Assembly (NCBI GenBank): GCA_013350285.1
Contig: JAAXWG010000004.1
Location: 1 to 64,000 of the forward strand
DNA length: 64,000 nucleotides
Source of the DNA: Candidatus Altimarinota bacterium
GTDB lineage: Bacteria > Patescibacteriota > Gracilibacteria > BD1-5 > UBA6164
Direction: 5' to 3'
The position numbers and the translations under genes were made by a program. Below, in pieces: positions 35,433 through 48,122 of the stretch; the stretch's first letter is position 1; every line of letters starts with the position of its first letter. The notes under the pieces were generated by a model that ran no database searches, was not told the origin of the DNA, and worked only from the letters and a program-made list of their open reading frames with translations.

Positions 35433-35542
35433 TTTATAAGAATAAATAATAACATATTATTTATAAAACATTATTATAAAAAAGCAAATAAAAATCTATT
35501 GAAAAAAAATAAAAAAATATATAATTCTTCCAACTTGATTTT

Positions 35543-35648
35543 TTGTATCAAGAGAGAGTGAGAGAGAATAGGCTCGTTATCATCACTCCAGCAACCTGTC
35601 TTTTAGATAAGGTGCTAAGTCCTACCCAGTAAAGAGGGAAAGATATAA
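35543..35648 (+). promoter_or_regulatory. SAM-I (S-box) riboswitch
   Basis: The element has the SAM-I core: TTGTATC pairing with GATATAA (P1), AAGAGAGAGTGA...TCACTC (P2), GCAACCT...AAGGTGCTAAGTCC (P3 and J3/4) and CCC...GGG (P4). It lies directly upstream of metK and is followed by an intrinsic terminator, so it most likely turns metK off when S-adenosylmethionine is high. S-box elements are known mainly from Firmicutes and related groups. Confidence 0.88.
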
Positions 35649-35670
35649 CAACGATTTTTTTCAAGCTTAT

Positions 35671-43017: not shown

Positions 43018-43020
43018 TAA

Positions 43021-43050
43021 AAAAAGAGTATTGAAAAATACTCTTTTTTT
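43021..43050. terminator. Intrinsic terminator
   Basis: AAAAAGAGTATT, GAAA loop, AATACTCTTTTTTT between convergent mscL and the LysE/RhtB gene; T-runs on both strands. Confidence 0.9.
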
Positions 43051-43062
43051 ATAAAATAAAAT

Positions 43063-43698
43063 TTACTTGATCATTGATATAAATTTTATTCAAAATACAA
43101 TGAGTATTGTTCAAAATATTTTGTTTAATTTTGTTTGTATTTTTTCATATAAAATTCTAATTTTTTTATTATTCATAATTATAGCGATAAAAGAAAACCA
43201 GAGAAAATTATTTAAAATAATTGCAAAAGAAGAAACAAATAGAGTAAAATTATCTTGTTTTTCATTCATAAGCATTGTAAATAAACTTAAAAAAAATAAT
43301 ATTGCTTTGGGATTGAGAATATTGCTAAGAAATCATATTTTTATTGCTTCAAGAAAAGATATTTCTCGTTGGATAATAATTGTATTTTCTTGTAATTCTT
43401 TTTCTAATTCCAACTTGGAAATAAATAAATTGAGTCAAAAATAAATAAGATACATTGCTCACAAAATTTTTATAATTCAAAATAATAACAATGTCTTTGA
43501 GAGAATAATTCATAATCATAAAAGACTATAAGATACATGAAACAAAACTCATAAAGAGCTTCAAATTGCCATATAAATTCCTGTCTTTTTTGAAGAAGAT
43601 AATGAAGTTTTTATTATCATTATAAGATCAGGTCATGGGAGAATAAGAGCAAGGAGGTGAATAGATACAATAGTAAGTATAAGAGCTTCTCTTTCCAT
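43063..43698 (-). CDS. LysE/RhtB-family amino-acid exporter
   Basis: 211 residues with six hydrophobic segments. The N-terminal LALILPGPDLIMIIKTSL is the family signature (PGPdxxx), followed by GSSLGVLFHVSYSLLGLGII and GFLSNILNPKAILFFLSLF, also diagnostic. LysE/RhtB proteins export amino acids such as Lys, Thr or homoserine. A Phe-rich leader peptide and attenuator-like terminator lie just upstream, so its substrate may be an aromatic amino acid; this is inference. Same strand as and downstream of DAHP synthase. Confidence 0.87.
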
Positions 43699-43730
43699 AG
43701 TTTTTATTATTTAGAGATTAAAATATTTAC

Positions 43731-43763
43731 AAAAAAAGTTCCTCAGTATTTTGCTGAAGAACT
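43731..43763 (-). terminator. Attenuator terminator in front of the exporter gene
   Basis: On the minus strand AGTTCTTCAG, CAAAATA loop, CTGAGGAACT (one G-U pair) followed by TTTTTT. The 5' arm GTTCTTCAG is also perfectly complementary to CTGAAGAAC within the leader peptide gene (43799-43807), giving mutually exclusive terminator and antiterminator hairpins. Confidence 0.82.
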
Positions 43764-43783
43764 TAGTTTTTTTTAATAAAATT

Positions 43784-43858
43784 TTAGCACAAAAACTCGT
43801 TCTTCAGATTGATAAAGAAGAAGAAAAAGAAGAAAGATATTTTTGTAGTTGGTTTCAT
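43784..43858 (-). CDS. Phe-rich leader peptide of the exporter
   Basis: 24 codons starting MKPTTKIS, then seven consecutive Phe codons (43814-43834), ending NEFLC with TAA. It begins 29 bases after the DAHP synthase stop and ends just before the attenuator hairpin. Codons 18-20 (CTG AAG AAC) form the antiterminator arm. The arrangement is that of pheL-type attenuation: a ribosome stalled on Phe codons leaves the antiterminator free. No good ribosome-binding site is visible upstream. Confidence 0.72.
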   Translation of the reverse strand: MKPTTKISFFFFFFFINLKNEFLC

Positions 43859-43886: not shown

Positions 43887-44990
43887 TTAAGCGGATTGGA
43901 GACGAATACTAGATGCTGAATTAAGCATTTCAAGCATTGATTCAGTTCACTTTTCTCAATCTATAGGAGTACATTCATCGGTTATACTTAACCATTCTTG
44001 AATATCATTAGGGGCATTTTCTCAAGGAGTGTAACTTTGGCTTCATCCCTTAAAGTATCATTCTATCATAACTCATGCAATTTTTCTATTTCCTTCTAGT
44101 ATTTGTCTTGATACTTCTTTACAAACCTCTATTTGATTTTCCCATTTTTTTCAACTGTTTGCATGTGAAAAATCAACAATTATTCATTTATGAATTCAAT
44201 GCTTTTTTTGTAGAGCCTCTATTTTTTCTATATCTTCTTCAGAGTAATTTGGCTTCGTTCATCATCTTGCTATGAAGTGTCAATCAGGATTTCAAGAAGT
44301 TGTTATTCTTGCTGCTTTTCAATTTTTTGTAACTGATAAGAATGAATGGCTTTTTTCTCATGCTTTAATTGCATCTATAGCAACTTGTGGATCTCATTTT
44401 GTTCAGTTCTTAAAACCAATTGGCATAGAAAGTCATGATGCTAATTGTCTATGTGTTTGGCTTTCTACCGTTCTGGCTCCTATAGCTCACCAGCTTATAA
44501 GATCAGCAATATATTGAGGAGTTACTGGATCTAAAAATTCAGTTGCACAAGGAACTCATAATTGATTTATTTTTAATAATAATTCCCTTGCTAGCTTGAG
44601 ACCTTTATCTATATTGAAGCTTTCATCAAGATCAGGATCATTTACAGATCACTTCCATCATACAGTAGTACGAGGTTTTTCAAAGTAAACTCTCATTATA
44701 ATTTCAAGTTGAGGATATTTTTCTCTCCATTCTTTTACTTTTTTAGCATATTCAAGAGCTTCTTTATGGTTATGTATAGAGCAAGGTCATACTATAACAA
44801 GAGGTTTTGTTTTTATATCTTTAAGATTTATAATATCACTTATTTTTATTCTACTATCTTCTACAAATTTGGCAGTTACATTGTCTAGGGGAAATAACTT
44901 AATTAACTCTTTTGGAGTTATTATTTCTTCCACATTATCAATTCTTTTATCATCTACAATTGATAAAGTATCATTTTTTGGTTGTGTCAT
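43887..44990 (-). CDS. aroG: 3-deoxy-7-phosphoheptulonate synthase (class I DAHP synthase)
   Basis: 367 residues. LVIVGPCSIHNHKEALEYA, MRVYFEKPRTTVGWKG, GVPCATEFLDPVTPQYI, GARTVESQTHRQLASGLS, PIGFKNGTKG, and the late HANSGKKWENQIEVC and GVMIEGYFKGGSQ are the hallmarks of the AroF/G/H family. It condenses phosphoenolpyruvate and erythrose-4-phosphate, the first step of aromatic amino-acid synthesis. The start is ATG (MTQPKNDT). A Phe-rich leader and terminator lie upstream. Unusual in CPR bacteria, which mostly lack amino-acid pathways. Confidence 0.95.
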
Positions 44991-45010: not shown

Positions 45011-45040
45011 AAAAAAGTTCTTCATTTTGCTGAAGAACTT
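45011..45040 (-). terminator. Attenuator terminator in front of DAHP synthase
   Basis: On the minus strand AAGTTCTTCA, GCAAAA loop, TGAAGAACTT, then TTTT: a perfect 10-bp stem and U-run, 21 bases before the DAHP synthase ATG. Its 5' arm plus loop (CTTCAGCA) is exactly complementary to TGCTGAAG at 45079-45086 in the leader gene. Confidence 0.85.
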
Positions 45041-45072
45041 AGGTTTTTTGTAATAAAATTTTAGCACAAAAA

Positions 45073-45141
45073 CTAATCCTTCAGCATTTCTCTAAAGAAG
45101 AAAAAGTAAAATCCAAAAGATATATATTTACTTGCATTCAT
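45073..45141 (-). CDS. Phe/Tyr-rich leader peptide of DAHP synthase
   Basis: 22 codons starting MNASKYIS, then FGFYFFFF, ending MLKD with TAG. An AAAGGAA Shine-Dalgarno lies 5-6 bases before the ATG. The codons ATG CTG AAG near the end provide TGCTGAAG, the antiterminator arm. Followed by 24 bases identical to the exporter leader region (from AGTTTTTGTGC onward) and then the terminator. Almost certainly a transcription attenuator sensing Phe-tRNA (and perhaps Tyr-tRNA). Confidence 0.78.
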   Translation of the reverse strand: MNASKYISFGFYFFFFREMLKD

Positions 45142-45236
45142 AATATTTCCTTTTGTGTTAAAAATACTTTTATACCATAATCATTTTTTTATAAAAAGCA
45201 AACTTTTTTATGAAAAAATAAAAAGACTAAAAAAAT

Positions 45237-45286: not shown

Positions 45287-45365
45287 GCGAGGGTAACATA
45301 AAAGAGTGAGTGTACTAAGGCTTCAACCCTTGGGTGTGCGAGTTCAAACCTCGTCCCTCGCTCCA
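45287..45365 (+). tRNA. tRNA-Gly(UCA), the UGA-decoding tRNA
   Basis: Acceptor stem GCGAGGG (45287-45293) pairs with CCCTCGC; discriminator T and an encoded CCA follow. T arm GCGAG-TTCAAAC-CTCGT. The anticodon stem TAAGG/CCTTG encloses the loop CTTCAAC, giving anticodon UCA (45323-45325), which reads UGA. The U discriminator fits glycine identity. The D arm (ACAT/GTGT) is weak and one extra base seems to lie between it and the anticodon stem. Short variable loop, so it is not a selenocysteine tRNA. It explains the TGA = Gly readings throughout the window. Confidence 0.9.
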
Positions 45366-45473: not shown

Positions 45474-45530
45474 AAACCTCGTCCCTCGCTCCATAAATTT
45501 TAAAAGTTGAGGAGGTTTGAAAGGAGGTTT
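45474..45530. repeat. tRNA 3'-end repeat, copy B
   Basis: A second copy of the tRNA 3' part with CCA and its downstream sequence, without a full tRNA 5' half. The 70 bases between the copies (45403-45473) hold no supported gene. This could be a duplicated terminator region, a decayed second tRNA, or the scar of an integration event. Confidence 0.85.
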
Positions 45531-47667: not shown

Positions 47668-47907
47668 TTATTCAGCAGTAGCTTCTTCAGTAGTAGCTTC
47701 TTCAGTAGTAGCTTCCTCAGTAGTAGCTTCTTCAGTAGTAGCTTCTTCAGTAGTAGCTTCTTCAGTAGTAGCTGCTTCTTCAGTAGTAGCTGCTTCTTCA
47801 GTAGTAGTTTCTTCTGAAGTAGTTTCTTCAGTAGTTTCAGTTTTAGTACCACAAGAAGCTAAAAAAGCTAATGCGATAACTGCAAATAGAGCTAATAATT
47901 TTTTCAT
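47668..47907 (-). CDS. Lipoprotein with TTEEA tandem repeats
   Basis: 79 residues. MKKLLALFAVIALAFLASC is a lipoprotein signal with the lipobox Cys at residue 19. The whole mature part is a 5-residue repeat (EEATT with variants such as EEAATT), encoded by 15-base units; it is highly acidic and Thr-rich. No domain follows. It may act as a flexible surface spacer. Upstream in-frame codons exist, but the hydrophobic signal starts best at this ATG. Confidence 0.75.
   Translation of the reverse strand: MKKLLALFAVIALAFLASCGTKTETTEETTSEETTTEEAATTEEAATTEEATTEEATTEEATTEEATTEEATTEEATAE
47674..47845. repeat. 15-base tandem repeat (VNTR) in lipoprotein gene
   Basis: About ten or more units of AGTAGTAGCTTCTTC-type sequence (plus strand), with occasional 18-base units where GCTGC replaces GC. 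The unit length keeps the reading frame, so copy-number changes would lengthen or shorten the protein. Confidence 0.9.
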
Positions 47908-48122
47908 ACGAATTTGTATTATATAATAAATAAGCCAGTACATTATAACAAGAAAAAATATTTTTCAATATTATTTCCCTTTATTGCTATTTACTTTTTA
48001 TTTTTATATTTTTTAATAAAAACTAATCATACATTTTTTGAAAAAAACTAAATGTTTATTTGTATTTTCTGATACTTTTTTTACAATAGGAGGAAAGTAT
48101 TTATTTTATTTTAAAAAAATCT

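Follow-up and report, generated by a model that had tools for sequence, protein, structure and literature searches.

The Phe-codon leaders of Escherichia coli, pheL-pheA and pheM-pheST, use a terminator/antiterminator switch to act on genes for Phe synthesis and Phe-tRNA synthetase, and in Corynebacterium glutamicum the export of amino acids by LysE serves as a safety valve. The Gracilibacteria attenuators described here appear to use the same switch as pheL-pheA and pheM-pheST, and members of the family also precede prephenate dehydratase and PheS-like genes; unlike in pheL and its Rfam family RF01859, the antiterminator arm lies inside the leader open reading frame (ORF) and is predicted to pair directly with the terminator. 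The closest likeness is to the C. glutamicum aroR leader (Phe-Tyr-Phe), which stands before the DAHP synthase gene aroF and is induced by Phe limitation (PMC11802643 and PMC4046766; the attenuator is that of Neshat et al. 2014, as described in PMC11802643). The two share a short Phe-codon leader, a DAHP synthase target and read-through under Phe limitation, which is predicted here, but they belong to unrelated lineages, and the cited passages on aroR-aroF describe no second attenuator or exporter target. In Bacillus subtilis, excess Trp inhibits growth, Phe and Tyr relieve the inhibition and loss of the exporter AexB worsens it, so that removing one aromatic amino acid relieves a shortage of the others; AexB is reported as a novel exporter and not as one of the LysE family (PMC13170310). 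Both AexB and C. glutamicum LysE resemble the carrier considered below if that carrier, too, exports as a safety valve. We know of no report that places either of them under a starvation attenuator. A literature search of limited coverage found no attenuator from Gracilibacteria and no LysE-family gene under an attenuator. As far as we found, the type of switch is classical, and what would be new is the lineage, the exporter target and the arrangement of two attenuators for the same signal in series.

The locus lies in a 64-kb window (the whole stretch of DNA that was analysed, positions 1-64,000 of contig JAAXWG010000004.1, assembly GCA_013350285.1) from Candidatus Altimarinota bacterium, whose genome of 1.28 Mb is represented by a 98% complete assembly. 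TGA encodes glycine, as is typical of Gracilibacteria, and the genes of the window are intact under translation table 25 only. The minus strand carries, in order, a probable promoter, attenuator 1, the DAHP synthase gene, attenuator 2 and a LysE/RhtB carrier gene (here called lysE), and in each attenuator, a short ORF containing a run of Phe codons is accompanied by a terminator whose 5' arm is complementary to a segment of the leader. In window coordinates, the features that surround attenuator 2 are these:

45169..45177, minus strand: extended -10 element TGGTATAAA, part of the probable promoter of the operon, ahead of leader 1 (read from the sequence)
45073..45141, minus strand: predicted leader peptide 1, MNASKYISFGFYFFFFREMLKD and stop, with 6 Phe and 2 Tyr codons (sequence and homologous leaders)
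45075..45085, minus strand: antiterminator arm 1, GCTGAAGGATT (pairing energy, covariation)
45015..45040, minus strand: terminator 1, a 10-bp stem followed by a U-run (terminator scan, covariation)
43887..44984, minus strand: class I DAHP synthase of the AroFGH type, 365 aa with TGA read as Gly (TIGR00034, PF00793)
43063..43698, minus strand: LysE/RhtB-family amino-acid carrier, 211 aa with TGA read as Gly (PF01810, TIGR00949)
43020..43049, no strand assigned: bidirectional, terminator-like hairpin AAAAAAGAGTATTGAAAAATACTCTTTTTT (read from the sequence)

The ATG of leader 1 is preceded by AAAGGA, and homologues of this leader precede DAHP synthase at 7 other loci. Arm 1 lies within the leader ORF, ends at its stop codon and forms a duplex of -16.6 kcal/mol with the 5' arm of the terminator. 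Attenuator 2 occupies the space between the two genes:

43784..43858, minus strand: predicted leader peptide 2, MKPTTKISFFFFFFFINLKNEFLC and stop (sequence and codon statistics)
43814..43834, minus strand: control region of seven consecutive Phe codons, 5 TTC and 2 TTT (sequence)
43799..43807, minus strand: antiterminator arm 2, CTGAAGAAC (sequence, pairing energy, covariation)
43774..43797, minus strand: 24-base stretch identical to 45051-45074 in the DAHP synthase leader region (sequence comparison)
43736..43764, minus strand: terminator 2, AAGTTCTTCAGcaaaatacTGAGGAACTT plus a T-run (terminator scan, covariation)

Leader 2 starts 28 bases past the DAHP synthase stop codon and runs for 24 codons, none of them TGA, from an ATG at 43858 to a UAA ending at 43784. 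Arm 2 is placed immediately after the Phe run, whose first and last codons start 27 and 9 bases ahead of it, and it is a perfect 9-bp complement of GTTCTTCAG in the 5' arm of terminator 2, which has an 11-bp stem, a 7-base loop, a folding energy of -12.9 kcal/mol and a U-run extending to about 43730. The region contains 3 terminator-like sites, compared with 0.3 expected from shuffles. Positions given in an earlier note on this DNA for the leader, its seven Phe codons, the complementary arm and the terminator all check out on the minus strand. The element thus has the parts of a putative Phe attenuator, namely, a leader ORF of cognate codons, an intrinsic terminator and a mutually exclusive antiterminator helix. 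Its stop codon lies 12 bases past arm 2, a layout similar to that of three related leaders (L013-L015), so a terminating ribosome would mask the arm less well than in leader 1.

We compared the two leaders directly. The 24 bases common to both, reported in the earlier note, are AGTTTTTGTGCTAAAATTTTATTA, and exact copies of a 22-base core, TTTTTGTGCTAAAATTTTATTA, occur at these two places only in the 1.28-Mb genome. Leader 1 ends in CTG AAG GAT TAG and leader 2 in CTG AAG AAC GAG TTT TTG TGC TAA; leader 2 is the frame of leader 1 continued past a lost stop codon to an in-frame stop that is present downstream of leader 1, and the extension carries an eighth Phe codon beyond the arm. Arm 2 pairs with its terminator by Watson-Crick pairs throughout, while arm 1 has some G-U pairs, and terminator 2 has 11 stem pairs to the 10 of terminator 1, which indicates that pairing was kept after duplication. 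Judged by sequence, attenuators 1 and 2 are homologous, and the shared anatomy and bases support the original proposal that the second Phe attenuator is a paralog of the one before DAHP synthase.

To estimate how often such a combination arises by chance, we scanned the window for an ATG with at least four in-frame Phe codons, an antiterminator arm of at least 8 bp and a terminator. The scan recovered these two loci only, and 40 dinucleotide-preserving shuffles gave no match. None of the 46 window genes of at least 150 aa contains a run of four Phe. In those genes TTC accounts for 6% of the Phe codons, against 5 of the 8 in leader 2 (binomial P of ~4 × 10^-5), and the Phe enrichment of leader 2 (8 of 24 codons) is equally improbable (P of ~4 × 10^-5). 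The use of this rare codon may reflect a choice of control codon or the avoidance of pure T runs; under either cause, the Phe run would be under maintenance.

DAHP synthase genes elsewhere in the family are preceded by the same anatomy; MWAAKKYTYFFFFFSKFLLKD, MLSLKKSYFFFFFFNTSLLKD and MRNLKQNYFFFFGNKFFFKGGFFSI, each closed by a stop codon, are examples of their leaders. We built a covariance model from five attenuator copies and searched 288 genomes of the class, obtaining 28 matches at an E-value of ≤0.01, of which ~three would be expected by chance because E-values were computed per genome. The matches fall in 24 of the 288 genomes, every one in the order to which the window belongs; we did not rely on the weakest few (E-values near 0.004), of which two, L139 and L144, lack a Phe leader. 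Downstream genes encode two types of DAHP synthase, prephenate dehydratase (L121, L122 and L137), shikimate kinase (L140), a PheS-like synthetase (L128) and, in L142, chorismate mutase followed by DAHP synthase, while several copies precede small proteins without a Pfam family. This distribution before aromatic-pathway and PheS-like genes lends support to the aromatic amino acid regulon that the earlier note had suggested. In the alignment of 27 distinct copies, 95.1% of the antiterminator helix is paired and both sides have changed at 9 of its 10 pairs, although the alignment was fitted to this helix and leans towards it; versions of the helix slid along the alignment are 39 to 61% paired, and none of 500 shuffles reached the covariation score. 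The terminator helix, to which the alignment was not fitted, is 93.7% paired (47 to 59% when slid), with both sides changed at 6 of 9 pairs. That one 5' arm is used in both helices is the signature of an attenuator, and the arms pair best or nearly best inside their own lineage. The anatomy, homology, covariation and codon bias of the element are, in sum, supported by sequence and comparison. The raw MAFFT alignment, in which the arms were misaligned between lineages, yielded only 4 pairs with RNAalifold and was set aside in favor of the model-guided alignment. Weak additional model matches in the source genome (best E-values of 0.1 and 0.36) were rejected since they have no Phe leaders. An Rfam search of the window yielded no attenuator match at the gathering threshold, RF01859 (Phe_leader) included; in one relative (L125), RF01859 gave an E-value of 0.044 and 33.3 bits, short of the gathering score of 55.

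Several relatives show variations on this arrangement. Seven loci (L125, L127, L130, L131, L133, L134 and L135, ~1460-1610 in gene orientation) have leaders rich in Trp, Phe and Tyr, such as MNTQIFSTSTWNFFYFFFSKYGRVSYCV, with the same switch, mostly followed by small Pfam-less proteins and then a thioredoxin reductase gene. Possible related attenuators with weak model scores occur at L143 and L144 (~1480-1610), where Leu-rich frames replace the Phe-rich ones ahead of a small unknown protein and an M20 peptidase. At L121, L122 and L124, the first gene after the attenuator (start at 1640 in gene orientation) encodes a protein of ~150 aa that has no Pfam family (checked in L122) and is followed by prephenate dehydratase in two of these genomes.

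We assign a probability of about 0.8 to the reading that attenuator 2 is a working ribosome-mediated attenuator that senses charged Phe-tRNA, was copied from DAHP synthase to lysE and now stands in a tandem series with its parent. The DAHP synthase attenuator would have been copied into the gap between the DAHP synthase gene and the carrier gene. When Phe-tRNA is sufficient, the ribosome would cross the Phe codons and the antiterminator arm, the terminator would form and transcripts would end after DAHP synthase; when it is scarce, the ribosome would stall on the Phe run, leaving the arm free to pair with the terminator's 5' half, and polymerase would enter lysE. If transcription of lysE relies on the promoter upstream, its two gates, which respond to the same signal, would multiply, keeping lysE tightly off and inducing it only at a real Phe shortage. 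We infer the read-through under starvation, the cotranscription and the direction and substrate of the carrier.

The DAHP synthase and lysE genes are probably one transcription unit, as suggested by the 28-base gap, the lack of a promoter-like site before lysE and the bidirectional hairpin after it, which ends the operon and has a convergent mscL-like gene on its other side. The extended -10 element at the head of the operon was not picked up by the consensus promoter scan; two relatives (L012 and L016) carry TTGACA-N16-TATAAA at the matching place before their DAHP synthase leaders. As an alternative, lysE could have its own promoter at a weak site, TTGAAA-N16-TAGTAT (9/12), at 43933-43906 in the 3' end of the DAHP synthase gene, although promoter-like sites in the region are no commoner than in shuffles. 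These hexamers would suit an explanation in which the hairpin is mainly the 3' terminator of DAHP synthase, the leader is a by-product of duplication and lysE, free of Phe control, is expressed weakly or from a promoter within the DAHP synthase gene. Attenuator 2 does stand exactly where a DAHP synthase terminator is needed, and the other lysE copies of the order are without an attenuator. However, a bare terminator needs neither leader features nor a matching arm, whereas leader 2 retains an ATG, an open frame, rare TTC codons and a pure Phe run longer than that of leader 1, and arm 2 is a perfect Watson-Crick complement despite bases that differ from leader 1. The scan also found no minus-strand promoter-like site between terminator 2 and the lysE start. 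We therefore regard this explanation as unlikely, if still the one to be taken most seriously beside a working attenuator.

The carrier protein belongs to the LysE family (PF01810, 115 bits against a cut-off of 25.6) but scored below every specific NCBIfam efflux model, reaching 159.2 bits with TIGR00949 (homoserine/threonine efflux; cut-off, 183.95) and falling far under the cut-offs for RhtC, LeuE and LysE. It groups with the LysE proteins of the order (support of 0.87) on a long branch, and we found no related solved structure. Among 77 genomes of the order, 6 have LysE genes, seven copies in all, and the window copy is the one with an attenuator: it is absent from the second LysE gene of the source genome and from those of L007, L008, L009, L035 and L036. 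LysE searches of 48 family and 77 order genomes gave no second attenuator-lysE pair, nor did the attenuator model in the 288 class genomes, and in GTDB contigs we found only LysE proteins of other phyla, at ≤35% identity. The conservation of the leader-terminator pair before other LysE/RhtB genes, proposed earlier as a check, thus turned out negative, as the other copies in the order lack the attenuator. The attachment of LysE to the attenuator is private to the source genome, and an arrangement found in a single genome allows no cross-species conservation test of attenuator 2. The other LysE gene of this genome comes immediately after a gene for a PepD-type dipeptidase (TIGR01893, 400 bits against a cut-off of 344), a neighbor that fits an overflow role in draining amino acids released from peptides.

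The scores below every efflux-subfamily cut-off leave some room for a carrier that imports Phe or a precursor, and the regulatory logic would then become trivial, with synthesis and uptake induced jointly as in ordinary starvation regulons. Against this, the protein matches efflux models only, and to our knowledge, the characterized LysE/RhtB members are exporters; we consider import improbable.

We sought the remaining pathway genes of the genome through protein family searches. The DAHP synthase itself is assigned by TIGR00034 (432.8 bits against a cut-off of 173.2) and a PF00793 match, and it scored 424 with the AroG equivalog model, below the cut-off of 568; among solved enzymes, it gave 343 bits with Phe-sensitive AroG and up to 322 bits with Tyr-sensitive ones. 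It carries aroB, aroA and aroC together with two chorismate mutases. Searches of the 98% complete assembly revealed no prephenate dehydratase (PF00800) and no prephenate dehydrogenase (PF02153), which leaves the product served by the pathway in doubt: the gene may lie in the unassembled part, another enzyme may take its place or the cell may be a Phe auxotroph whose shikimate pathway is under Phe control. The missing dehydratase is the basis for a further proposal, in which Phe shortage in an auxotroph would run the shikimate pathway to prephenate and a product would be exported through the carrier in exchange with a partner organism, in place of making Phe in the cell; we think this a long shot. 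Across the order, the shikimate pathway is a patchwork: of 77 genomes, 45 encode prephenate dehydratase, but 9 encode chorismate synthase and 7 dehydroquinate synthase, and several genomes, including the 99% complete G045, have a Phe-attenuated DAHP synthase without chorismate synthase and prephenate dehydratase.

The polarity of the proposed attenuator would be the ordinary one, with Phe starvation leading to read-through. The Phe run lies upstream of the arm and the stop codon downstream, so a ribosome stalled on the early Phe codons would leave the arm free. All homologous leaders of biosynthetic genes have this order, and a shortage of Phe should therefore open the two gates alike. An inverse leader, by which Phe abundance would induce lysE and the carrier would be a Phe safety valve, would suit a Phe exporter and could appeal to the eighth Phe codon past the arm, at which a stall would place the ribosome over the arm, but seven Phe codons ahead of the arm would stall ribosomes first and the order of elements is that of the homologous biosynthetic leaders, making it very hard to credit.

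With a working, starvation-induced attenuator as the preferred reading, a Phe-short cell would turn on export along with synthesis. The earlier note saw little sense in this unless the carrier imports or the leader is inverted; that view is not supported, given the usual starvation-induced geometry and the fit of a non-Phe exporter (compare AexB, PMC13170310). The paradox had assumed Phe as the substrate, and it is gone if the carrier expels a different amino acid. The AexB case makes an exporter that removes a competing aromatic during Phe shortage coherent. We give a safety-valve role somewhat less than even odds. The carrier would be an overflow valve for a non-Phe amino acid, in the simplest version a surplus aromatic that blocks the pathway by feedback and so brings about the Phe shortage; in another, equally possible version, it would release amino acids that accumulate while translation is limited by Phe.

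These data are evidence that ribosome-mediated aromatic attenuators form a family spanning this order of the Gracilibacteria, a group that reads UGA as glycine and whose regulation is little described. A duplicated attenuator would here have recruited an amino acid carrier into a starvation regulon, and should the carrier export a different amino acid, the locus would show directly how starvation for one amino acid can command the export of another. The arrangement bears on why small, probably host-dependent cells retain amino acid exporters and makes that question testable.

Other features of the window were also recorded. A SAM riboswitch (RF00162, 50.9 bits) at 35542-35649 on the plus strand indicates that the genome uses a metabolite riboswitch too. 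A short minus-strand ORF at 47668-47943 encodes a lipoprotein-like product built of TTEEA repeats. Divergent from the DAHP synthase promoter is a plus-strand tRNA gene (45287-45365) with anticodon TCA, which reads UGA; ARAGORN labels it tRNA-SeC, but as TGA encodes Gly here, it is probably the recoding tRNA. Its 3' end is partly repeated at ~45475-45515.
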